This document shows positions 15,722 through 29,120 of a stretch of DNA of 64,000 nucleotides, one piece after another. Every line of letters begins with the position of its first letter. The first letter of the stretch is position 1. A program made the position numbers and the translations under genes. The stretch comes from Flavisolibacter longurius (GTDB lineage: Bacteria > Bacteroidota > Bacteroidia > Chitinophagales > Chitinophagaceae), in assembly GCA_013327885.1 (NCBI GenBank), contig JABUMY010000011.1, positions 62,001 through 126,000 of the forward strand. The letters are read 5' to 3'. The notes below the pieces were generated by a model. The model was not told the DNA's origin. It was given only the letters and a program-made list of their open reading frames with translations, and did not search any database.

Positions 15722-17011
15722 TCAATCCACCAGCGCACTGTACACCATCACCTTGAACTTATCAGAAGCATCCCAGTGTGAGGAGCCCCAGATCTGGCGG
15801 TAAAGGATTCCCACAAGGCCTTCTTTCGGGTCAGCCCAGTAAAGGGTGGAAAAGGCACCACCCCAGTCAAACACCCCGGCCGGCGTGGGTATCCTGGCAC
15901 TTCCCCTTTCGGTGGTGATACCAAAGCCCAGCCCCATTTTGTTCTGGCCAAAATCAACATCACCGATCTGGTTCATGATGATCATCCGCACGGTGTTGCG
16001 GGCCAGGAGTTGCTTGCCGTTGTACGACCCGCCATTGAGCAGCATCTGCAGAAAAATGGCATAGTCCAGTGCCGTGGACGAAAGACCGGCACCGCCCGAA
16101 AAATATGTAGTGCCGTTCTTGGGATAATCCGTTTGAAAGATGCCGTTCTGGTTCACGCCGGGCGGTGCTTTCTGCAGGGTGCCGTTCTCCTCGCGGTACA
16201 GGTTTGCCACACGGGAGTGCTTGGCGGCCGGCACGTTGAAATACGTGTCTTTCATGCCAAGGGGTTCAAAGATCCGTGTACGGAAAAATTCATCCAGCGT
16301 GGTGCCGGAGAGCACCTCCACCAGGTAGCCCAGGAGGTCCGAGTTGAGCCCATAGGTCCAGCGTTCGCCAGGATGATGCAGGAGGGGAAGCTTGCCCAGC
16401 TTGCGCATGTCGGTAGCCAGCAGGTGACCGTTTTCGGCACCAATTCCTGCAGTGATGCCTGCCTTGGCATAAATGGCGTTGGCTTCCTTGCTGCCGATCT
16501 GCGCATAGCCAATACCGGACGTATGGGTGAGCAATTGCCGGATGGTGATTTCGCCCTTGGCCGGCACGGTGGTATAGCTTGAATCCTGGGCGTTGAATTT
16601 TTCCAGCACCACAGGTTTGGCAAATTCCGGAATGTAAAGTGATACGGGATCGTCGAGCAGGAACTTGCCTTCTTCGTACAGCATCATCGCCGCTATGGAT
16701 GTAATGGCTTTTGTTTGCGAAGCAATGCGGTAAATGTCATCGGTGCGGATAGGGTCTTTTTTCTCCGGGTCGTCAAAGCCGAACGCTTTGTGGTAAACAA
16801 TCTTGCCGTTGCGGGCAATCAGGGCCACGGCGCCGTTGGTGCGGCCCCTTTCCACCCAGCCGGTGAGCATGGTATCGAGGCGCTTCAGCCTTTCGGCTGA
16901 GAAGCCGGCGCTTGCAGGCAGCGCAGGTTGCAGGGTAGGCTTTGTGCTTTGCGCAAAGGTGAGGAGGGCCACCAAAACAAAGCCTGTAAAAAGCGGGATC
17001 TTTTTTCGCAT
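15722..17011 (-). CDS. Secreted serine hydrolase of the beta-lactamase/EstB type
   Basis: 429 residues with a signal peptide (MRKKIPLFTGFVLVALLTFAQ). SQTK (Ser98-Lys101) is the nucleophile motif and Tyr220 in YGLNSDLLG the likely general base. The C-terminal WGGAFSTLYWADPKEGL replaces the HxG motif, as in EstB-like esterases. It lacks the DUF3471 tail of its two relatives in the window, so it is from another subfamily. The gene at 17049 ends 37 bases upstream and has the same orientation. Likely reaction: hydrolysis of an ester or amide in the periplasm; substrate unknown. Confidence 0.88.
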   Translation of the reverse strand: MRKKIPLFTGFVLVALLTFAQSTKPTLQPALPASAGFSAERLKRLDTMLTGWVERGRTNGAVALIARNGKIVYHKAFGFDDPEKKDPIRTDDIYRIASQTKAITSIAAMMLYEEGKFLLDDPVSLYIPEFAKPVVLEKFNAQDSSYTTVPAKGEITIRQLLTHTSGIGYAQIGSKEANAIYAKAGITAGIGAENGHLLATDMRKLGKLPLLHHPGERWTYGLNSDLLGYLVEVLSGTTLDEFFRTRIFEPLGMKDTYFNVPAAKHSRVANLYREENGTLQKAPPGVNQNGIFQTDYPKNGTTYFSGGAGLSSTALDYAIFLQMLLNGGSYNGKQLLARNTVRMIIMNQIGDVDFGQNKMGLGFGITTERGSARIPTPAGVFDWGGAFSTLYWADPKEGLVGILYRQIWGSSHWDASDKFKVMVYSALVD

Positions 17012-17048
17012 AAGATGAAGAGTTGGTTGAAGAAAGAGAGTAAATTAA

Positions 17049-18227
17049 TTATTCTGCCGCGCTGTTTGCTTTAAATACACGCAAAAAATTTTCTCCTAAT
17101 ATTTTACGAATGTCAGCTTTGCTATAACCACGCTTGAGCAGGCCTTTGGTGATGAGCGGCATATTGGTCACGTCCTGCAGTTCTTTGGGGGCGGAAGAAA
17201 TGCCGTCGAAGTCAGAGCCCAGACCCACATGGTCGATGCCAGCCACCCGGACAATGTGGTCGAGATGATCAAGCAGGAGGGAAAGCGGTGGCCGCAGTTG
17301 ACTGGCTTCTTCGGGATATTTTTCTTTGATAAATTCATGAATATCATCCTGCTCCCATTTGGCTGTTTTAAGTGAGTCGATTTCTGCTTGGTGACGGTTA
17401 GTAAAAGCCGTTAGCCGGGACATAAACGAACTGTCCAAAAACATGGAAAAAAAATTCAGGTGCACCACACCGCCGTTCCTGGAAATGGCTTTCAGTTGAT
17501 CGTCTTTCAGGTTGCGAAACACCGGGCAAAGCGCATGGGCACAACTGTGCGAAGCGATGACTGGTTTTGTTGATGTATTGATCGCATCCCAAAACGTTTG
17601 TTCGCCAACGTGACTCACGTCTACCATCATGCCCAAACTGTTCATGCGCTGCACCACCTGTTTGCCAAAGGGAGTGAGACCTTTTTGGGTTAGATCTTTT
17701 TTCATCGTTTCGTCCATGGCCGATGTGGCCCAGGAAGTGCTGTTGTTCCAGGTCAGGGTGAGATAACGAACGCCACGCTTGTAAAAGCTGTCGAGGTAGG
17801 CGAGGTTGTCTTCTATCATATGACCGCCTTCCACGCCCAGCATGCAGGCGATCTTTTTTTCGGCAACGGCTTGTTGCAATTGTGCAGGGTTAGTAGCAAG
17901 CATCAGCTTATCCTCATTTCGGGCAACAATTGAATGGAGCGAATCGATCTCGCGGTTGGCGTACCTGAAGGCGGTGTCCTTGCCATAGCGTTCATCGCAA
18001 AACACAGCAAAGACCTGCACATCCACACCGCCCCTTTTCAACCGGGCCAGATCGGAATGGGTGCGGCCGGTAAGATCGGATTCAATGCTGAGTCCCCGCA
18101 TGGTAGCCGAAGAAAGAACATCGTTGTGCGTATCCACCACCACCGCATCCCGGTGGAGCCGTTTGTAGGATTGACAGGAGACCAGGAAAAGAGTAGCAAT
18201 GAGCAGGCATCGCAGGAAGAGCATCAT
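17049..18227 (-). CDS. Lipoprotein membrane dipeptidase, family M19
   Basis: 392 residues with a lipoprotein signal (LFLVSC, Cys18). The zinc-site motifs of renal-type dipeptidases are present: DTHND near residue 33, the bridging Glu in GVEGGHM near 134, VDVSHVGE near 205, ASHSCAHAL near 230 and GLGSDFDG near 335. The family cleaves L-aa/D-aa dipeptides and some L-L dipeptides. It is upstream of, and on the same strand as, the EstB-like hydrolase. It also lies 1.1 kb from the divergently transcribed cyanophycin-like locus, but nothing in the sequence ties it to that locus. Confidence 0.92.
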   Translation of the reverse strand: MMLFLRCLLIATLFLVSCQSYKRLHRDAVVVDTHNDVLSSATMRGLSIESDLTGRTHSDLARLKRGGVDVQVFAVFCDERYGKDTAFRYANREIDSLHSIVARNEDKLMLATNPAQLQQAVAEKKIACMLGVEGGHMIEDNLAYLDSFYKRGVRYLTLTWNNSTSWATSAMDETMKKDLTQKGLTPFGKQVVQRMNSLGMMVDVSHVGEQTFWDAINTSTKPVIASHSCAHALCPVFRNLKDDQLKAISRNGGVVHLNFFSMFLDSSFMSRLTAFTNRHQAEIDSLKTAKWEQDDIHEFIKEKYPEEASQLRPPLSLLLDHLDHIVRVAGIDHVGLGSDFDGISSAPKELQDVTNMPLITKGLLKRGYSKADIRKILGENFLRVFKANSAAE

Positions 18228-19339: not shown

Positions 19340-19939
19340 ATGGCTACATACGACGAGAAGTGGCTGCTGCAACAGGTGGCGGAAGGAAACGAGGCTGCCT
19401 TCCGCGAACTGTTTCACCGCTATGCGGACCTGTTGGGAAGCTTTGTTCTCCGTCTCACCCGGTCGGAGGTGCAGGCAGAGGAAATCGTCCAGGACGTTTT
19501 CCTGAAGATCTGGCTGAACCGTGCTGCCCTGGCAAGTGTCGACAATTTTAAGGTCTACCTGTTTGTCATTTCCCGCAACCAAACCCTGAATGTCCTTCGG
19601 TCAGCCGTTCGGCAAATGGCTTCACAAAAAGAATGGGAAAGCCTGCAGGCCCGCTTGCCACAGGCAGAAGAACGGGAGCCCGAAGAAAACGAAGGCCTGA
19701 TTCGCCAGATGGAATCTGCCATCAATAAACTGCCGCCGCAGCAAAAAGCCGCCTGGCTCCTGAGCCGGCAGGAAGGACTGAGTCATAGCCAGATCGCCAG
19801 CAACATGGGACTGTCAAAAGAAACAGTCAAGAAATACATTATGTATGCAAACGACTCCCTCCGGCGCCATCTTTCGGCATCGAACCTGATTATTTTTATC
19901 ACTTTTGTCTCTTTTTTTATTTTTTTCCTGACCCGGTAG
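19340..19939 (+). CDS. FecI-type ECF RNA polymerase sigma factor
   Basis: 199 residues from the ATG at 19340; a GTG at 19325 is also in frame. Region 2 covers about residues 20-85 (FHRYADLLGSFVLRL, EEIVQDVFLKIWLNR) and region 4 about 120-170 (INKLPPQQKAAWLLSRQEGL, HSQIASNMGLSKETVKKYI). The hydrophobic C-terminal tail (IIFITFVSFFIFFLTR) is common in Bacteroidota FecI-like factors. It is followed by FecR and a SusC/SusD pair, the standard arrangement in which ligand binding by SusC signals through FecR to release the sigma factor. Confidence 0.93.
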   Translation: MATYDEKWLLQQVAEGNEAAFRELFHRYADLLGSFVLRLTRSEVQAEEIVQDVFLKIWLNRAALASVDNFKVYLFVISRNQTLNVLRSAVRQMASQKEWESLQARLPQAEEREPEENEGLIRQMESAINKLPPQQKAAWLLSRQEGLSHSQIASNMGLSKETVKKYIMYANDSLRRHLSASNLIIFITFVSFFIFFLTR

Positions 19940-20004
19940 CCCCTGTTTCCCGTTTTTGGTGTCCTCTCCTGTACATGCAGCTTTGCATGTTGTAAACCGC
20001 TTTC

Positions 20005-21186
20005 ATGCAAACAGGTAATTCAAACAGGATTGAAGAACTGCTCGGCAAATGGTACGACGGGACCTTGTCACCTGCCGAAGGGGAAGAACTGTTGGCCCTT
20101 TTGCAGCGCAGCGATGAGCACCAGGAAACCTATGAAGCCTTGCAGAAAGCCTGGATGACCACGGAAGAAACACCTGTTTTCAGCCCGGGGCAAAAGGAAA
20201 AACTGCTGAACAATATCCTGGGCCGGAAAACCCGGCGCCTTGTTTTCCTGCGGGTGGCCATTGCCGCCGCCGTGGCGGGTCTTGTTATCGCCACCGTGCT
20301 TTGGCTGCAGCCGGGTAATCCCAAACAAAGCCTGGCAAGTACAACCGAAACGCCGGTAGCGCCGCCGGCCGATATTCCGGCACCTGCTTCCAACAAAGCT
20401 GTACTGACGCTGGCCGATGGCCGGCAGATTGTGCTGGAAACCGCCGGTGATGGCACCCTGGCAACCGATGGCGGCATGCAGGTGAGCAAGCTGCCTGGCG
20501 GCGAACTGGTTTACGAAGGAAAAGACACCGAGATCCGGTACAATACCCTCACGGTTCCTAAGGGCAGCCAGCCGGTAAAACTGGCGCTTGCCGATGGCAG
20601 CCGGGTGACGCTGAACGTGGCATCCTCCCTTACCTATCCGACAGCTTTTGCTGGCGGTGCCCGCAAGGTGAATCTTACCGGCGAAGCCTATTTCGAGGTG
20701 GCGCATTTGCCCGGGGGCAAAACGCCTTTTTTGGTAGAAACAGGCGGCATGCAGGTAGAAGTAAAAGGAACAAAATTCAACGTCAATGCCTACCCCGATG
20801 AAAAGGACAGGCGAACCACGCTGCTGGAAGGCGCCGTGGTGATAAAGGCTGGGACGGCGGAAAAAGCACTCCTGCCGGGAGAGCAGGCCATTGTGGCCAA
20901 TACAACCAGCACAGCACCATCCATCCGGGTGGATGGCCGTGCCGACCTGGAAGAAGCGATGGCATGGGTGAACGGAAGGTTCCGCTTTAACAATGCCGAT
21001 GCGGAAACCGTGATGCGGCAGGTAGCCCGCTGGTATGATGTGGAGGTAAAATTTGCTGCCAGGCCGCGTTTGCGTTTTGGCGGCCAGATCGATCGGGCCA
21101 GCACCTTGCGCCAGATGTTCACCATCCTGGAGACAAGCGGTCTTCACTTTTCCCTGCAGGGAAAAGTGGTAACGGTGCTGCCTTAA
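20005..21186 (+). CDS. FecR-family anti-sigma factor
   Basis: 393 residues. An N-terminal cytoplasmic segment (IEELLGKWYDGTLSPAEGEEL) binds the sigma factor. One transmembrane helix lies at about 80-100 (FLRVAIAAAVAGLVIATVLW), followed by the periplasmic FecR domain at about 175-285 (LADGSRVTLNVASSLTYP, LTGEAYFEVAH, VEVKGTKFNVNAYP). The C-terminal DUF4974 domain covers about 320-390 (FNNADAETVMRQVARWYDVE), which likely contacts the SusC N-terminal signalling domain. It lies 65 bases after the sigma gene and 58 bases before susC. Confidence 0.94.
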   Translation: MQTGNSNRIEELLGKWYDGTLSPAEGEELLALLQRSDEHQETYEALQKAWMTTEETPVFSPGQKEKLLNNILGRKTRRLVFLRVAIAAAVAGLVIATVLWLQPGNPKQSLASTTETPVAPPADIPAPASNKAVLTLADGRQIVLETAGDGTLATDGGMQVSKLPGGELVYEGKDTEIRYNTLTVPKGSQPVKLALADGSRVTLNVASSLTYPTAFAGGARKVNLTGEAYFEVAHLPGGKTPFLVETGGMQVEVKGTKFNVNAYPDEKDRRTTLLEGAVVIKAGTAEKALLPGEQAIVANTTSTAPSIRVDGRADLEEAMAWVNGRFRFNNADAETVMRQVARWYDVEVKFAARPRLRFGGQIDRASTLRQMFTILETSGLHFSLQGKVVTVLP

Positions 21187-21244
21187 AAAAGCAGATTTCG
21201 CAAAACGAAACCTTGCCCTTAACAGCGGCCTTTCAGGTTTCCGG

Positions 21245-24200
21245 ATGCATTTCAAATTGAATACGAGTTTATTGTTAACACCAAATGTTCAAAACATGCT
21301 AAACGCTGCGAGCCGGAGAAAAAGGCATTACCCGCCTGCACTGCAAAAAACGTTTCGACTGATGAAACTGACCTGTGTTCTTCTTTTCCTGACCTTTCAA
21401 ACCTTTGCCGTTGGCGGGTATTCGCAAACGGTGAGCCTGAACGTGGAAAAGGCCACCCTGCAAAAGCTTTTTGCGGAGATCGAAAGCCAGACAGGTGTGC
21501 TGTTCTTTTACAACGCCGACTGGCTGCAAAAGGCCAACCCGGTAACCATCAAGGTAAAAAACACACCACTGCAAAAGGCACTTGATCTTTGCTTTTCCAA
21601 CCAGCCGCTTTCGTATTCCCTGGTAGGAAACACGGTGGTGATTGCTCTCAAGAAAACAGAAACAGCGCCGCAAGTCAGCCAGGCCCTGGCCGCCATTGAC
21701 GTTACCGGTCGCATTGTTGACGAACAGGGCCAGCCCCTGCAAGGTGCCAACGTGCAGGTGAAGGCCAGCAGCAACGGCACCATCACGGATGCGGGTGGAA
21801 ATTTTATCCTGCGCAATGTGCCCGAAGGCGCTGTGCTGGTGGTTTCCTTTACCGGCTACACAACGCTGGAAGTAGGGGCACAGTCCCGCCTGGGCGATGT
21901 GCGTCTTTCCCTTACCGTTGACCGCATGACAGAAGTAACCGTTACCGGTTACACCAATTATCGCCGCGACAAATCGCCGAGTGCTTCGGCCGTTGTTACC
22001 AGCGACAAGATCAACCAGGTGCCGGGGCTAACGGTAGACCAGATCCTGCAGGGCCGCGTACCGGGCATGAGTGTTATCTCTACCTCGGGACAGCCGGGCC
22101 AAAGCGCCAGCGTGGTGATCCGCGGCATCGGCAGCATCAACGGCTCGTCGGCGCCCCTGTTTGTTATGGACGGCGTTCCCATTGAGTCCAATTATTTTCA
22201 AACCATTAACCCCGAAGACATCGAATCGGCCACGGTGCTGAAAGATGCCTCGGCCAAAGCGCTTTACGGCTCCCGCGGGTCCAACGGTGTGGTTGTTATC
22301 ACCACAAAAAAAGGCCGCCGCGGCGGGGTTTCGGTACAATACAATTCGCAATACGGCTTTTCCAACCTGAGCCGCCCCAATTTTATTATGATGAACACGG
22401 AGCAGCGCCTCCGGTTTGAAGAAGAGATCGGGGTGATGTACAACCGTAACCTGGGCCCGGGCTGGACTTATTCGCCCAAAAACCCGGCGTATGCGGCCGG
22501 CACCGATGCCTCCCGCCAGCGGGCCGATGCCATCCTCGACAGCCTGCGCGGCGTGGATGTGGACTGGCGTGATTTCTTTTTCCGTCGCGGAACCTTCCAG
22601 GAGCAGCAGGTGGCCGTCAGCGGTGGCAACGAAGGCCTGCGCTTTTACAACTCTATTAATTATTACAAGCAGGAAGGCGTTGCCCGCCGTACAGGACTGG
22701 AGCGTTATACCTTGCGCAGCAACCTTGATTTCAACTCCGGTAAATTCAGTGGCAGCACCAACCTGGCCCTTGGGTATTCCAAGTCCAGCTTTACCGAAGG
22801 CGAAGGCAGCACCAGCGCCGGTACGGCTATGTCGGCCGTGTATTATGCGCTTCCGTACGAGTATCCCTATGCTCCCGATGGTACGCTGGTGCATCCCGGC
22901 AACCGGTCGCAGTATGGCGTGCTAGACCAGCGTGAAGGCAGCCAGGCCCTGGAAAGATTGCTGAACACCTCCAACAAAACTGACCAGCTCAAAGCCATTA
23001 TCAGCACGGCCTTTGCCTACCAGATTCTGCCTAACCTGAAGCTGTCAACAAGGGCCGGTGTGGATTACCGCAACTCCAACGACCTGTATTATATCAACCC
23101 TGATTCTTATTATGGCTCCCGCAACACTTCCACTACGTTGGGAGGAAGGGGCCGCCTGGAGCAGGGTAACCGCCGGAACTTCAACATTATCTCCACGTCG
23201 GGAGTAACATTTGCCGATGTGTTCAACGATGTGCATGATGTGGAAGTATCAGGCTTTTACGAATACAACTACAACAATTACAACAGCTACGGCTTTACCG
23301 GTTTTGGCATCGACGGCCGCCTGGCCGAAACACCGGCCGGCGTAACCAACGGCAGCCCTACGTTTTTGCCCACAATTGGCGGCAGCAAAACCAGCAGTGC
23401 TCTGGCTTCGTTTATGACCGTGGCCCGCTATACCTATAATAATAAGTATACGCTTACCGGTAGCTACCGCTACGATGGGTCTACCCGTGTGGCACCGGTG
23501 AACAAATGGCATGGCTTCTATTCGGTTGGTGCCAGCTGGCTTGCCAAAAATGAGGCTTTCCTGAAAGACGTGGACCTGGTCTCCGACCTGCGCATCCGCA
23601 CCAGCTATGGCCTTACCGCCAGCCCGTTGGGAGCTGATTTTGCCTACCTGCCCACTTATGCAACCAATACATCGTATGGTGGCGTAACGGGTATCAGGCC
23701 ACAGTCACCGGGTAACCCTGCCTATGACTGGGAATACGTTCGTGAATTCAACGCCGGTTTCGACCTGGGGCTTTTTGCTTCCCGGAGACTGCGGATCGTA
23801 GCCGACTTCTATAACCGCATCACGTCCAATATGTTCTTTGACCAGCCCTTGTCGGCAACCTCCGGTTTTGCCACGCTGCCGCTGAGTACCGGTAAAATGC
23901 GCAATCGCGGGGTAGAGTTTGAAGTGAACGGCGATGTGATTCGTACGAAGGACTTTACCTGGAGCCTGGGCGTGAATGCAGCCTATAACAAAAACACGAT
24001 TCTTTTCCTGACGCCGCTGGCCACCGAACTGCTTGACGGTGATACCCGCATCTTTAAGGTAGGCTATCCTTACGGCACCTATTATGCGCCGGATTGGGCG
24101 GGTGTGAATCCCGAGACCGGCGAGGCCCAGTACCGCAACCTCGATGGCACTATTACCACGGTGTACAATTCTGCGGCGCAAAGCACCACTAACTCAGGCG

Positions 24201-24679
24201 GTCTTTATCCTACGTTCACCGGTGGCTTTACCACGGGGCTGAGCTGGAAAGGCCTTACGCTGAATGCGCTGTTTTCCTTTGTATCGGACGTGATGCGCTG
24301 GAACAACGAGGATTTTTACAACGAGAACCAGCGGTATGCCACCAGCAACCAAACCCTTCGCATGCTGGAAGACCGCTGGAAAAAGCCGGGTGATGTGACC
24401 ACGTTGCAGCGCTTCGATGTTCCCCGGAACTATACATCCAAGGACATCCAGGATGCTTCTTTCCTGCGCTTGCGTAACCTGAATCTTGGTTATTCGATCC
24501 CTGCTTCCCTGGTGCAGAAAACAAAACTGATCAAAGGGGCAAGGGTGTTTGTACAGGGGCAAAACCTCCTGACCTGGACCAAGTGGCGCGGACTGGATCC
24601 CGAGAACAACAGTGTGTACGGCCGCTTTCAGTATCCGAATACCCGTACTTATACGGCTGGCCTGAATGTTAACTTTTAA
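21245..24679 (+). CDS. SusC/RagA-family TonB-dependent transporter with STN signalling domain
   Basis: 1144 residues. The STN secretin/TonB short N-terminal domain covers about 60-125 (LNVEKATLQKLFAEIESQ), a CarboxypepD_reg domain about 155-225 (TGRIVDEQGQPLQGANVQV), and the SusC plug about 245-360 (VDQILQGRVPGMSVIST, DGVPIESNYFQTINPEDIE, GSRGSNGVVVITTKKG); the rest is barrel ending in NVNF. The STN domain means the receptor can signal to FecR. It is followed 12 bases later by SusD and then by cyanophycinase-like and isoaspartyl peptidase genes, suggesting that it imports peptide products. Confidence 0.95.
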   Translation: MHFKLNTSLLLTPNVQNMLNAASRRKRHYPPALQKTFRLMKLTCVLLFLTFQTFAVGGYSQTVSLNVEKATLQKLFAEIESQTGVLFFYNADWLQKANPVTIKVKNTPLQKALDLCFSNQPLSYSLVGNTVVIALKKTETAPQVSQALAAIDVTGRIVDEQGQPLQGANVQVKASSNGTITDAGGNFILRNVPEGAVLVVSFTGYTTLEVGAQSRLGDVRLSLTVDRMTEVTVTGYTNYRRDKSPSASAVVTSDKINQVPGLTVDQILQGRVPGMSVISTSGQPGQSASVVIRGIGSINGSSAPLFVMDGVPIESNYFQTINPEDIESATVLKDASAKALYGSRGSNGVVVITTKKGRRGGVSVQYNSQYGFSNLSRPNFIMMNTEQRLRFEEEIGVMYNRNLGPGWTYSPKNPAYAAGTDASRQRADAILDSLRGVDVDWRDFFFRRGTFQEQQVAVSGGNEGLRFYNSINYYKQEGVARRTGLERYTLRSNLDFNSGKFSGSTNLALGYSKSSFTEGEGSTSAGTAMSAVYYALPYEYPYAPDGTLVHPGNRSQYGVLDQREGSQALERLLNTSNKTDQLKAIISTAFAYQILPNLKLSTRAGVDYRNSNDLYYINPDSYYGSRNTSTTLGGRGRLEQGNRRNFNIISTSGVTFADVFNDVHDVEVSGFYEYNYNNYNSYGFTGFGIDGRLAETPAGVTNGSPTFLPTIGGSKTSSALASFMTVARYTYNNKYTLTGSYRYDGSTRVAPVNKWHGFYSVGASWLAKNEAFLKDVDLVSDLRIRTSYGLTASPLGADFAYLPTYATNTSYGGVTGIRPQSPGNPAYDWEYVREFNAGFDLGLFASRRLRIVADFYNRITSNMFFDQPLSATSGFATLPLSTGKMRNRGVEFEVNGDVIRTKDFTWSLGVNAAYNKNTILFLTPLATELLDGDTRIFKVGYPYGTYYAPDWAGVNPETGEAQYRNLDGTITTVYNSAAQSTTNSGGLYPTFTGGFTTGLSWKGLTLNALFSFVSDVMRWNNEDFYNENQRYATSNQTLRMLEDRWKKPGDVTTLQRFDVPRNYTSKDIQDASFLRLRNLNLGYSIPASLVQKTKLIKGARVFVQGQNLLTWTKWRGLDPENNSVYGRFQYPNTRTYTAGLNVNF

Positions 24680-24691
24680 TTTTTGATCGTT

Positions 24692-26080
24692 ATGAAAAAG
24701 CAATTTTTGTTCATCTCCTCTATACTCTTTACGGTTATGGCGATGGTCTCCTGCACGAAGCTGGATGAAAGGCCTACCGATATCATCGACCCGGATAAGG
24801 CTTTCCGCAACCTCAACGATATCAACATGGGACTGATTGGTGTGTATGCACTCGCTGATTATACGCCCATCAGCATGAACGCCACGGTGTCGGACGAGGC
24901 CACGTTCCCTACCGAAAACACCGTAGGCAACAGTGATGCCTTTCGCTGGCTGTACAATCCCAGCAGCGGTTCGGTAACCGGGCTGTATGCCGAAGGCTAC
25001 CGTGCCATCGATCGTGCCAACCGTACGTTGGAAGGGTTAGAAAAGCTGAGTTTTTCGGGTAACGATGCGGCCATTGCTGCCCGTTACAGGGGCGAATTAC
25101 TGGCCCTCCGCGCTTATTTTCATTTTGAGTTGCTGCGGGCTTATGCCAGCGCCTATCAACCCGGAGCCCTGGGAATTCCGTATATGAAAAAGTCCGGCCT
25201 GGGTTTGCCGGCCCGCGATCCGTTTGAAGTGGTGGTGACCAATGCCAAGGCCGATCTGGCCGAGGCAAAAGGATTGCTTCCTGCCAGCTTTACTGACAAA
25301 AGCCGCGTTGCCCGCCTGGCGGTTTCGGCCATGCAGGCCCGCATTGCGCTGTACGAAAAAGCCTGGACCGACGCCATTACCTATTCCAGTGAAGTGATAG
25401 TGGCTGCACCCCTGGCTACCAAGGCGCAGTTTCCCGGCATCTGGACGGACGCCAACGACAACGAAGTGATTTGGGAGGCCCGCCGGGTAGGAACCACGGA
25501 CTCCCGTGTGGGTGATTTTTTCTTTCGCCAAACCGGTGGCATTGTGTTGTATGCGCCTTCGTTCAAGCTGATCAACATCTTTAACCAGGCCGACGATATC
25601 CGCTTTCCGGCTTATATCAAATACGACCCAACCCGAACCGGCACGAAGTCGCAGTACCTGGTAAACAAATACATTGGCGGTACGGCAACGGCACCGGGCC
25701 TGGCCGATATCAAGTTTTTCCGCACGGCGGAAATGTACCTGATCCGTGCTGAAGCCAAAGCCGAATCGGGTGGTGATGGCGCCGAAGACCTGAATGCCCT
25801 TCGGGCTGCCCGCATCAACAACTACACGGCGGAAACCTTTGCCGACAAAGCAGCGCTGATCGATGCGATCATGACCGAGCGATTTAAAGAGCTGGCCTTT
25901 GAAGGCCACCGCTTTTACGACTTGCGCCGCCGCAACCTGCCGGTAGAGCGCCTGCCGGAAGATGCCGTGAACGCATCCGGGGCTGTGAAGCTTATGCCGA
26001 CGCAGGCGCAATATGCCTTCCCGGTTCCGGCAACGGAAGTGCTGATCAACAAAAACACGGTGCAAAACCCGAATTATTAA
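24692..26080 (+). CDS. SusD/RagB-family nutrient-binding lipoprotein
   Basis: 462 residues from the ATG at 24692; a TTG at 24683 is less likely. Lipobox AMVSC gives Cys21 as the lipidated residue. The TPR-like helices of SusD are visible (YRAIDRANRTLEGLEKL, YRGELLALRAYFHFELLRAYA, FFRTAEMYLIRAEAKAESG) and the C-terminal MTERFKELAFEGHRFYDLRR is diagnostic. SusD forms the lid of the SusC transporter and binds the ligand on the cell surface. No protein in this locus is a carbohydrate-active enzyme, so the ligand is probably not a glycan. Confidence 0.95.
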   Translation: MKKQFLFISSILFTVMAMVSCTKLDERPTDIIDPDKAFRNLNDINMGLIGVYALADYTPISMNATVSDEATFPTENTVGNSDAFRWLYNPSSGSVTGLYAEGYRAIDRANRTLEGLEKLSFSGNDAAIAARYRGELLALRAYFHFELLRAYASAYQPGALGIPYMKKSGLGLPARDPFEVVVTNAKADLAEAKGLLPASFTDKSRVARLAVSAMQARIALYEKAWTDAITYSSEVIVAAPLATKAQFPGIWTDANDNEVIWEARRVGTTDSRVGDFFFRQTGGIVLYAPSFKLINIFNQADDIRFPAYIKYDPTRTGTKSQYLVNKYIGGTATAPGLADIKFFRTAEMYLIRAEAKAESGGDGAEDLNALRAARINNYTAETFADKAALIDAIMTERFKELAFEGHRFYDLRRRNLPVERLPEDAVNASGAVKLMPTQAQYAFPVPATEVLINKNTVQNPNY

Positions 26081-26158
26081 TCATAACCGGTTGACCGGCG
26101 GCCTTTCTGCGCCTTTAAACGCAAATAGGGCCGCTGGTTTTTCCCGGATCGTTTTCGT

Positions 26159-27241
26159 ATGACGACAAAATTCCTGTTGCTTACCCTTTCTGCCGCGCTG
26201 CTGGCGGGATGTGCCAAGCAAACTCTCCCGGCTGCTGTAGCGCCGCAATCCCCTGAGCCGCCCCTTGGCGTTCGCCGGCCAGCCTCTCTTGGCGTTACCG
26301 GTGACAGCACCGATGTAAAAACGGCCACCACAGGCGGCCTTGTGCTGATGGGTGGCGGAACCGATACCGATCCGGCTTTTCAATGGATGATAGACCAGAG
26401 CGGTGGTGGCGATGTGGTGGTACTACGGGCTACGGGAACGGCGGCCTATAATCCCTACATCTACGAATTGGGAAAGGTCAATTCCGTGGAAACCCTGAAG
26501 ATCGACAGCCGCGAGCTGGCCAATAACGACACGGTGGCGGCCATTATCCGCAATGCCGAAATGCTGTTCATCGCCGGCGGCGACCAGTCGAACTACATGC
26601 GGTACTGGCGGGGCACCAAAACCGAAGCGGCCATCAATTACCTGCTCAATGAAAAGAAAGCGCCGGTAGGTGGCACCAGTGCCGGCTGTGCCATCATGGG
26701 CGGTCTTTATTACAGCGGTGAAAACGGCAGCGTGGTGTCGGCCGATGCCCTGAAAGACCCTTTTCACCCCAACATAACGCTGTATAACAACGATTTTTTA
26801 AAAGCGCCTTTTTTGCAAAACGTTATCACCGACCAGCACTACCTGGCCCGTACCCGCGAGGGGCGGTCCGTGGTATTTATGGCCCGCATCTTCAAGGAGT
26901 GGAACCTGCCGGTAAAAGCCATTGCCGTGGATGAACGCACGGCTGTGTGCATCGACAGCGAAGGCAGGGCCAAGGTCTTTGGTCTTTCCTCGGCCACGCG
27001 GCCCTTTAGCTATGCGTATTTTATAACCGCATCCCCAAGCAAAGCCCCCGAAACCGTGCAGGCAGGCCAGCCGCTTACCTGGGACCGCGACGGAAAAGCG
27101 TTGGCGGTTTACGAGATCCAGGCTTCGGCCACCGGCAACGGCAACTTTAATGTGGCCTCGTTTTCTACCGGAGAAGCCACCAGCGGAAAAATGTACTGGT
27201 GGTGGGTTCAGGATGGTATCTTGCACAAACAAGCACAATAA
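26159..27241 (+). CDS. Cyanophycinase-like lipoprotein (peptidase family S51)
   Basis: 360 residues, with lipobox LLAGC (Cys18). The S51 nucleophile lies in GGTSAG (Ser174) and a GGDQ motif at 140-143. DQH at 225-227 is followed by arginines at 231, 233 and 236, matching the D-Q-H-x3-R-x-R-x2-R signature of cyanobacterial CphB, where (from memory) these residues hold arginine side chains of cyanophycin; Glu259 in VDERTA is the likely triad acid. The related dipeptidase PepE lacks the arginine set. Being a lipoprotein it acts in the periplasm or at the surface. Its stop is 2 bases before the isoaspartyl peptidase gene. Confidence 0.85.
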   Translation: MTTKFLLLTLSAALLAGCAKQTLPAAVAPQSPEPPLGVRRPASLGVTGDSTDVKTATTGGLVLMGGGTDTDPAFQWMIDQSGGGDVVVLRATGTAAYNPYIYELGKVNSVETLKIDSRELANNDTVAAIIRNAEMLFIAGGDQSNYMRYWRGTKTEAAINYLLNEKKAPVGGTSAGCAIMGGLYYSGENGSVVSADALKDPFHPNITLYNNDFLKAPFLQNVITDQHYLARTREGRSVVFMARIFKEWNLPVKAIAVDERTAVCIDSEGRAKVFGLSSATRPFSYAYFITASPSKAPETVQAGQPLTWDRDGKALAVYEIQASATGNGNFNVASFSTGEATSGKMYWWWVQDGILHKQAQ

Positions 27242-27243
27242 AC

Positions 27244-28272
27244 ATGAGAAAGAAGCTTCAAATTTTTGCTTTGCTGCTGGCAGGCGTTTTTGCCCTGCAG
27301 GCTGCCAATGCACAACAGAAAAAATATGTGATGGTGATCCACGGCGGTGCCGGCACCATTACCCGGGCCAAAATGACCCCGGAAAGGGAAAAGGCTTACA
27401 TCGCCGCCCTGCGGGAAGCCCTGCAAACCGGGTATAATTCTATTCAAGCCGGCAAGTCAAGCCTGGATGCAGTGGAAGCCACCATTCATGTGCTGGAAAA
27501 CTCACCCCTGTTCAATGCGGGCAAAGGTGCTGTATTCACCAACGATGGCCGTAACGAGTTGGATGCTTCCATTATGGAAGGAAAAGACCTGCGGGCAGGC
27601 TCTGTAGCCGGTGTTACCACGGTAAAAAATCCCATCAGCGCTGCAAGGGCGGTGATGGAAAAATCGGAGCATGTGATGATGGTAGGCGCCGGGGCCGAAA
27701 AGTTTTCGAAAGAAGCCGGGCTGGAAATCGTAGACCCAAAATATTTCTGGACGGAGGGCCGCTGGAACGGTCTGCAGCAAGCCATCAGGGAAGATTCGGC
27801 CAAAGCCGTGCTGGATCATGACCAGAAAACATCGCTTTTAGGTACCATCAACAAGGATAATAAGTTTGGCACCGTGGGCTGCGTGGCGCTTGACAAAGCG
27901 GGCAACCTGGCGGCCGGTACCTCTACCGGTGGCATGACCAATAAAAAATACGGTCGCGTTGGCGATGCGCCCATCATTGGCGCCGGCACGTACTGTAACA
28001 ATGCCACCGCTGGTATTTCGTGTACGGGTTGGGGTGAGTTTTTTATCCGCGCCGTGGTGGCCAAAACGGTTTCGGACCTGATGGAATACAAAGGACTGAG
28101 CGTAGCCGAAGCCTCAAGGATAGCGATTGAAAAAGTAGAAAAGCTGGGCGGCGATGGTGGCCTGGTGGCCCTTGACAAGAATGGTAACATCGCCATGCCT
28201 TTCAACACCGAAGGCATGTACCGCGGCGCCGTAACTGCGGACGGTAAAATTGAAATTCAAATCTATAAATAG
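27244..28272 (+). CDS. Isoaspartyl peptidase / L-asparaginase (Ntn hydrolase, plant type)
   Basis: 342 residues from the ATG at 27244, with a signal peptide ending near ANAQ. The chain should self-cleave between Gly209 and Thr210 (FGTVGCVALD), making Thr210 the nucleophile. STGGMTNKKYGRVGDAPIIG and GAGTYCNN beyond it are the substrate-loop motifs of PF01112. The family hydrolyses beta-aspartyl dipeptides (and L-asparagine). With a cyanophycinase on each side, the natural role would be splitting beta-Asp-Arg to Asp and Arg. It overlaps the following gene by 1 base (TAGTG). Confidence 0.92.
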   Translation: MRKKLQIFALLLAGVFALQAANAQQKKYVMVIHGGAGTITRAKMTPEREKAYIAALREALQTGYNSIQAGKSSLDAVEATIHVLENSPLFNAGKGAVFTNDGRNELDASIMEGKDLRAGSVAGVTTVKNPISAARAVMEKSEHVMMVGAGAEKFSKEAGLEIVDPKYFWTEGRWNGLQQAIREDSAKAVLDHDQKTSLLGTINKDNKFGTVGCVALDKAGNLAAGTSTGGMTNKKYGRVGDAPIIGAGTYCNNATAGISCTGWGEFFIRAVVAKTVSDLMEYKGLSVAEASRIAIEKVEKLGGDGGLVALDKNGNIAMPFNTEGMYRGAVTADGKIEIQIYK

Positions 28273-29120
28273 TGCAAAAGCTTCCGAGCCTTATCCTTTT
28301 TTCCGTATTTCTTTTTCTTTGCTGTTCGCTTTCGGCGCAGAAGGAGGCCAAAGGCAGCTTGTTTATTATTGGTGGCGGTACCCGCAGCGATGCGCTGATG
28401 AAGCAGATGGTGGAAACGGCGGCCCTTCGTCCAACTGACTACATCGTGGTGCTGCCCATGGCCAGCGAAGTGCCGGACGAAGGCTTTGCGCTGATCGCCA
28501 AACAAGTGGGCAAACACACGGCGGCGCCTGTACGTAATTTTAATTTTGCCAAACATCCGGTTACCGACAAGGCCTGGGTGGATTCGCTGGCCGGTGCTCG
28601 CCTGATCTATATTTTGGGTGGCGACCAAAACCGGTTTATGAAAACCGTTTTGGGTACGCCGGTTTACGGTGCCATTCACCAGGCGTATAAAAACGGTGCT
28701 ACGGTTGCCGGCACCAGCGCCGGTGCGGCCGTCATGAGCCGGTACATGATCACCGGTGCGCAACTCCGCGACTCGGTTTACAAAGAAACCTTTGACAAAG
28801 TTTGGGAAAACAACATTGCTTTTGCCGAAGGCCTGGGCCTGCTGCAAAACACCATCATCGACCAGCATTTTTTAAAACGCAGTCGCCACAACCGCCTGCT
28901 GACAGCCCTTGCCGACAAACCGCAAATGGTTTGCGTGGGCATTGACGAAGGCACTGCTATTATTGTGCAAGGGGCCAAGGCAACGGTAGCCGGAGAAAGC
29001 CAGGTGCTGCGGCTGGCCAATCCAAAAGGCGCCAAAGCAACAGCATCAGGACTCATCACGTTTGAAAGCGCTGAACTGGGATTGTTTGCCAACGGCGACA
29101 GTTTTCGCATTAAACGGTAA
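28272..29120 (+). CDS. Cyanophycinase-like protein (peptidase family S51), secreted
   Basis: 282 residues, GTG start at 28272 sharing its G with the TAG stop of the preceding gene. The N-terminus is a hydrophobic signal peptide ending SLSAQ (about residue 23). GGDQ (Gln119), GTSAG (Ser149), DQH (197-199), Arg203, Arg205, Arg208 and Glu226 match the CphB catalytic and arginine-binding set with the same His-to-Arg and His-to-Glu spacing (4, 6, 9 and 27 residues). It is therefore the better cyanophycinase match of the two here. It should cut the poly-aspartyl backbone exo-wise and release beta-Asp-Arg dipeptides. The gene ends 22 bases before the convergent purN. Confidence 0.88.
   Translation: MQKLPSLILFSVFLFLCCSLSAQKEAKGSLFIIGGGTRSDALMKQMVETAALRPTDYIVVLPMASEVPDEGFALIAKQVGKHTAAPVRNFNFAKHPVTDKAWVDSLAGARLIYILGGDQNRFMKTVLGTPVYGAIHQAYKNGATVAGTSAGAAVMSRYMITGAQLRDSVYKETFDKVWENNIAFAEGLGLLQNTIIDQHFLKRSRHNRLLTALADKPQMVCVGIDEGTAIIVQGAKATVAGESQVLRLANPKGAKATASGLITFESAELGLFANGDSFRIKR

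Follow-up and report, generated by a model that had tools for sequence, protein, structure and literature searches.

What nutrient is served by a SusC/SusD (SusCD) locus whose accompanying enzymes are two S51 peptidases and an isoaspartyl peptidase? The question is raised by a 64,000-nucleotide stretch of Flavisolibacter longurius DNA, hereafter the window, which covers positions 62001-126000 of contig C2 (JABUMY010000011.1) in a genome (G000) of 5.75 Mb, 52 contigs and 99.9 percent completeness. Seven consecutive + strand genes at 19340-29120 of the window encode an extracytoplasmic function (ECF) sigma factor, FecR, SusC with an STN domain, SusD, a first S51 protein (S51A), an IaaA-type isoaspartyl peptidase (IaaA) and a second S51 protein (S51B). 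A previous annotation from the letters alone (the sequence-only reading) had listed these genes, and their order, strand and coordinates were all correct on re-checking. The transporter is a TIGR04056 SusC and adjoins a SusD lipoprotein. That reading took the genes for a SusC/SusD system feeding on cyanophycin from outside, a view that active-site residues, fold, a gene fusion and conservation of the locus support well; we infer the substrate with good support, and the locus is probably a utilisation system for cyanophycin or for beta-Asp-Arg/Lys oligomers.

The catalytic triad of cyanophycinase CphB has been listed as Ser132/His174/Glu201, together with Gln101, Asp172, Gln173, Arg178, Arg180 and Arg183, and the three arginines, Gln101, Asp172 and Gln173 are named as its pocket (PMC3235067). 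In an alignment anchored on the CphB structure 3EN0, all nine residues, arginines included, were found in the homologous columns of both S51A and S51B. The sequence-only reading, which had itself asked for this alignment, had picked the right residues, which are Ser174, D225-Q226-H227 and Arg231/233/236 in S51A, and Ser149, D197-Q198-H199 and Arg203/205/208 in S51B. S51B also passes the curated cyanophycinase equivalog TIGR02069. The predicted structure of S51A, the one protein that was modelled, has the cyanophycinase fold and is closer to it than to other S51 folds, with 17-20 percent identity to its fold matches. Both proteins thus resemble Synechocystis CphB (3EN0/7UQW) in triad and pocket residues, and S51A also in fold; they differ from it in having export signals, one of them with a lipobox, and, for the S51A fold matches, in that low identity.

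Retention of these residues accompanies the locus. An S51A gene was counted as locus-linked when a SusD or IaaA match lay within 1200 bases or when it was fused, and rows scoring below 100 bits for S51A or below 150 bits for S51B were left out. The complete set was present in 83 of 84 linked S51A rows and in 22 of 76 other S51A homologues. Some contigs are present twice (G682 = L171, G101 = L177, G356 = L178, G324 = L222), and these counts include some genomes twice; when near-identical proteins were collapsed (219 rows to 204), the values were 75/76 vs. 21/75 (Fisher 2e-22, kinship ignored). In the unlinked homologues, Gln173 was commonly replaced by Thr or Ser, and Arg178 by Pro. For S51B, 58 of 59 rows retained all nine residues; three S51B-like rows under 150 bits (L072, L081, L082) were without the full set. 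Longer S51 frames of 665-700 residues occur in distant Bacteroidota (L149, L150, L152, L154-L157), with Asp for the triad Glu and an extra region. The source genome holds a further S51 gene with an in-frame stop (G000:C50:137072-137635; L002, L082), possibly a pseudogene or an assembly error.

The third enzyme had its best solved match in E. coli 2zak (326 bits vs. 125 bits for glycosylasparaginase 1p4k), and on this comparison we rejected a glycosylasparaginase for N-glycans. Its catalytic Thr and six more site residues were retained in 80 of 80 homologues (rows above 200 bits, some outside the locus, duplicates kept). As it scored 369.9 bits against a cut-off of 567 for the NCBIfam equivalog NF007589 (PRK10226), we regard it as IaaA-type and not as the E. 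coli equivalog. At 11 loci, on 10 distinct contigs, a single reading frame encodes both S51A and IaaA; it spans 652-705 residues, with starts uncertain in the longest cases, and in every fused protein the nine S51 residues are intact, as are those of IaaA. Because two consecutive steps of the pathway are placed on one polypeptide, the fusion gives strong, though indirect, support for S51A and IaaA acting on one substrate chain.

The locus is real and widespread. A search for the same gene order elsewhere, also suggested in the sequence-only reading, recovered the seven-gene order in G101, G356, G530 and G682, the last from another family of the class and identical in contig to Pedobacter sp. 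Leaf170 (L171). A contig search gave 235 relatives, of which the best 80 were kept, with genes called as the best phmmer matches of the window proteins (E 1e-5, uncurated). S51A stood directly behind SusC/SusD in 59 of these best 80 loci, and in 35 of the 59 it was followed in line by IaaA and S51B. The sigma factor and FecR preceded 27 of the 35 in-line loci (one with SusC in two frames, one then with another sigma-FecR-SusC set), and S51A and IaaA were fused in 2 of the 59. Carriers include Pedobacter, Chitinophaga, Sphingobacterium, two Mucilaginibacter metagenome-assembled genomes (MAGs), a Filimonas MAG and a Rufibacter, among others. Pedobacter suwonensis DSM 18130 (L188) and Chitinophaga arvensicola DSM 3695 (L235) are examples of cultured carriers; in G770 and G630 a diverged SusCD lies beside IaaA, S51B and S51A. 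The whole source genome has five S51 and three Asparaginase_2 matches, and since three of these eight genes are consecutive here and the arrangement recurs in many genomes, the S51A-IaaA-S51B grouping is beyond chance. In L145 and L148, from another family of the class, a diverged SusC/SusD occurs with S51B, S51A and an IaaA without obvious signal peptide, an arrangement that may be a second form of the locus. A sodium:dicarboxylate (SDF) symporter follows on the same strand in 13 of the 59 loci (e.g., L171, L190), a PKD-domain protein lies downstream in 7 loci and an M14 peptidase on the opposite strand in 5; one representative of each class was identified.

In a SusC tree of 64 rows made by a quick method, the window grouped with two Chitinophagaceae rows (98 percent in the Shimodaira-Hasegawa-like approximate likelihood ratio test, SH-aLRT), and these three joined 25 Pedobacter and Mucilaginibacter rows (98 percent). 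The midpoint root of this tree is distorted by L226, whose branch length is 9.4 and whose SusC call is doubtful. No S51A match was found at E 1e-50 in eight other genomes of the source organism's genus. Transfer of the locus between families is likely from these sequence comparisons.

For induction, direction of transport and compartment we infer the following course. An external signal passing through FecR and the ECF sigma factor would switch on the dedicated SusC/SusD pair, which would bind cyanophycin chains or fragments and import them by TonB-driven transport. Two exported S51 enzymes, S51A lipid-anchored and S51B soluble, would cut the poly-aspartate backbone to beta-Asp-Arg, and exported IaaA would break the dipeptide down into Asp and Arg, with the periplasm as the likeliest place. 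The sequence-only reading had the lipoprotein enzyme begin digestion at the cell surface, which the lipid tails do not support. In 56 of the 59 loci, examined with a loose lipobox rule, an acidic residue at +2 to +6 was present in 55 of 56 SusD tails (CTKLD, CNKQL and the like); the rule found a lipobox in 50 of 54 unfused S51A proteins, and 18 of those 50 had such a residue, while the source S51A tail (CAKQTL) had none. The surface-export rule of Capnocytophaga is K-(D/E)2 (PMC5080379); most of our SusD tails offer just one acidic residue near enough to count, and the rule may not be that of these genera. By this rule S51A leans weakly to the periplasm, and we set surface digestion by S51A aside on this weak ground. 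Eight fused S51A-IaaA proteins were inspected by eye: five resemble ordinary secreted proteins, two could be read either way and in one the start is uncertain; the loose rule flagged a lipobox-like cysteine in both fused proteins that it covered.

Several observations weigh against the cyanophycin assignment. The main warning comes from 7uqv, the closest solved relative of S51A and S51B, which retains 9/9 residues; its molecule is named cyanophycinase and its entry is titled pseudo-CphB, so the nine residues alone may not suffice for cyanophycinase activity. A literature search on "pseudo-CphB" found no paper explaining the title. S51A scored 63.2 bits, under the TIGR02069 cut-off of 126.6, and is therefore filed as cyanophycinase-like and not as a member, and Met occupies position 173 in one S51A linked to the locus (L243). 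The arrangement also varies: among the 59 loci, S51A-IaaA lacked S51B in line in 16, S51A-S51B lacked IaaA in 5, and L226 had S51A with neither. The remaining 21 of the 80 loci comprise 3 partial arrangements and 18 with S51A alone; all 18 of the latter, 15 of them Mucilaginibacter, have the nine residues, and S51A can therefore do without SusCD. Cyanophycin chains are long (n = 80-400) and dissolve poorly (PMC10206079), and we identified no clear depolymerase exposed at the surface; for a long polymer to pass SusC, the cell would have to take up fragments that others have made, or S51A would have to act at the surface after all. The 15 Mucilaginibacter loci (L196, L197, L199, L200, L205, L207, L208, L210-L212, L214-L217, L219) have no SusD or IaaA within 1.2 kb of an S51A with 9/9 residues, although in L200 a SusCD pair lies about 2 kb upstream. 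The neighbours of five stand-alone S51A genes, viewed by eye, offered no shared clue.

The best surviving alternative is uptake of beta-linked peptides, isoaspartyl-rich ones among them, from damaged or decaying protein, the S51 enzymes having drifted to general beta-aspartyl trimming that IaaA finishes. It draws on the title of 7uqv and on the promiscuity of IaaA-type enzymes, which accept a wide range of beta-aspartyl dipeptides even when encoded in cyanophycin clusters (PMC10206079), a further point against cyanophycin as the specific substrate. Yet 75 of 76 distinct S51A proteins linked to the locus retain the CphB pocket residues, which are often changed elsewhere in the family, and we consider this alternative unlikely.

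The second alternative turns on where the polymer comes from. The sequence-only reading had argued for an outside target from a missing cphA; the window indeed has none, but contig C10 of the same genome carries a full-length cphA1 (1236 bits, cut-off 850), and the argument fails. At G000:C10:12308-15788 (L006, L003, L081), this cphA1 adjoins a Thr173-type S51 gene that is oriented divergently; the two make up a storage pathway apart from the locus. The presence of cphA1 and an adjoining S51 gene would suit a locus that recycles the organism's own cyanophycin from lysed sisters or leakage, as an extension of storage. However, cphA1 was present at E 1e-100 in only 7 of 26 genomes that carry the locus, in this or a looser form, and the 19 without it are a better argument for external supply than its absence from the window. 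These 26 were hand-picked, with looser cases in G324 (a fusion, this SusCD not beside it), G425 (no IaaA), G151 and G294 (S51A, S51B and SusCD otherwise arranged) and G770 and G630 (diverged SusCD). In the family, cphA1 was found at the same threshold in 6 of the 21 members that belong to this set of 26 vs. 82 of 195 drawn genomes, 80 of them above the curated cut-off (rough Fisher p = 0.35, groups overlapping and kinship ignored). On both counts the locus does not follow own synthesis, and we rejected a tie to cphA1 storage. Moreover, the locus enzymes have export signals by eye, and the stored polymer is intracellular. Recycling of own polymer is therefore quite improbable.

Peptides are known substrates of some SusCD/RagAB systems. 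In the third alternative the locus would be an ordinary SusCD system for another nutrient, with the peptidases as PepE-like aspartyl dipeptidases for general peptide scavenging (PepE does belong to the S51 family; PMC9239234). It is rejected on active-site residues and fold and is the least credible of the three.

Returning to cyanophycin from outside, the cphA1 counts suggest that its storage may be common in the family of the source genome, so that potential producers would be frequent relatives. As cphA1-bearing relatives are frequent, we tentatively offer a wider reading, to which we give somewhat less than an even chance: a one-locus importer and digester, moving between families, would be a common scavenging trait of Chitinophagaceae and Sphingobacteriaceae and not a speciality of cyanobacterial mats, and the S51A-IaaA fusion of one branch would turn imported polymer into periplasmic Asp and Arg.

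The sequence-only reading knew of no characterised SusCD locus of this kind, but the idea has already been published. Ben Hania 2017, as cited by PMC10206079, described a locus for cyanophycin utilisation in a Bacteroidete, Salinivirga cyanobacteriivorans L21-Spi-D4 (species name from PMC6243061); it holds cyanophycinase genes, iadA and a transporter. The two loci agree in bringing together genes for cyanophycinases, for an isoaspartyl dipeptidase and for a transporter (PMC10206079). Unlike the Salinivirga locus, ours has the Ntn hydrolase IaaA in place of the zinc enzyme IadA, and because iaaA replaces iadA it is a variant and not the same locus; no TIGR01975 match to IadA reached the cut-off in the source genome (best 26.5 of 331 bits). 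The Salinivirga transport complex was reportedly called homologous to polysaccharide utilisation loci in the abstract of Ben Hania 2017. The present locus also differs in its ECF/FecR pair, in having two S51 classes that have diverged, in the S51A-IaaA fusions of its relatives and in the taxa that carry it. Another case comes from the alphaproteobacterial genus Citromicrobium. In Citromicrobium sp. JLT1363, a TonB-dependent transporter beside a cyanophycinase gene was predicted for cyanophycin uptake, likewise from context; the available text describes no SusD and no isoaspartyl peptidase there (PMC3400609). Pseudomonas alcaligenes CphE is likewise an exported S51 enzyme with the Ser/His/Glu triad and the same three arginines (PMC3235067); compared by description, it has Thr at CphB Gln173, where S51A and S51B have Gln. 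Among genomes without cphA1, 45 of 52 cluster cyanophycinase with iaaA/iadA, read as scavenging clusters (Sharon and Schmeing 2023, PMC10206079), and SusCD, two S51 classes and fusions are not described there in the parts available. S51 homologues of Salinivirga lie in another genomic context (PMC6243061). The available parts of PMC6243061, PMC8880816, PMC11573002 and PMC12590107 describe no SusCD cyanophycin locus, and our literature search found none shown experimentally, an absence that is unproven since subscription papers were mostly outside the search. The locus is a variant of known cyanophycin utilisation loci, with ECF/FecR, two S51 classes, fusions and IaaA setting it apart from the Salinivirga one.

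If the assignment is true, the range of SusCD import in cultured genera (Pedobacter, Chitinophaga) would include a polymer that is non-ribosomal and isopeptide-branched, and cyanophycin turnover outside cyanobacteria would become testable. IadA or IaaA is reported in 22 percent of cphA1-bearing Bacteroidota, and the isoaspartyl dipeptidases of cphA1-bearing Firmicutes and Bacteroidota are said to remain undiscovered (PMC10206079). The exported IaaA is a concrete candidate for such an enzyme acting on external polymer, and the S51A-IaaA fusion may allow a single protein to take cyanophycin all the way to free arginine.

Table 1. Genes of the locus in window coordinates.
Feature	Position	Strand	Remarks
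ECF sigma factor, locus gene 1	19340..19939	+	TIGR02985 129.3 bits, cut-off 126.4; Sigma70_r2, r4_2; ATG 19340
FecR anti-sigma factor	20005..21186	+	PF04773 and PF16344 above cut-off
SusC/RagA TonB-dependent transporter, STN and carboxypeptidase-regulatory domains	21245..24679	+	TIGR04056 727.9 bits, cut-off 368; STN PF07660
SusD/RagB lipoprotein, tail CTKLDE	24692..26080	+	PF07980 and PF14322 above cut-off; lipobox Cys21
S51A, cyanophycinase-type lipoprotein, nucleophile Ser174	26159..27241	+	
IaaA-type isoaspartyl peptidase (Asparaginase_2, Ntn hydrolase)	27244..28272	+	PF01112 389 bits; export signal by eye
S51B, second cyanophycinase-type protein, nucleophile Ser149	28272..29120	+	TIGR02069 141.9 bits, cut-off 126.6; export signal by eye

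The spacing is as first noted, with gaps of 12 bases between SusC and SusD, 78 between SusD and S51A and 2 between S51A and IaaA, and an overlap of 1 base between IaaA and S51B. Just upstream, on the - strand at 15722-18227 of the window, lie genes for a beta-lactamase-fold serine hydrolase and an M19 membrane dipeptidase; as the 80 kept loci contained no M19 match, these genes seem to lie outside the locus.

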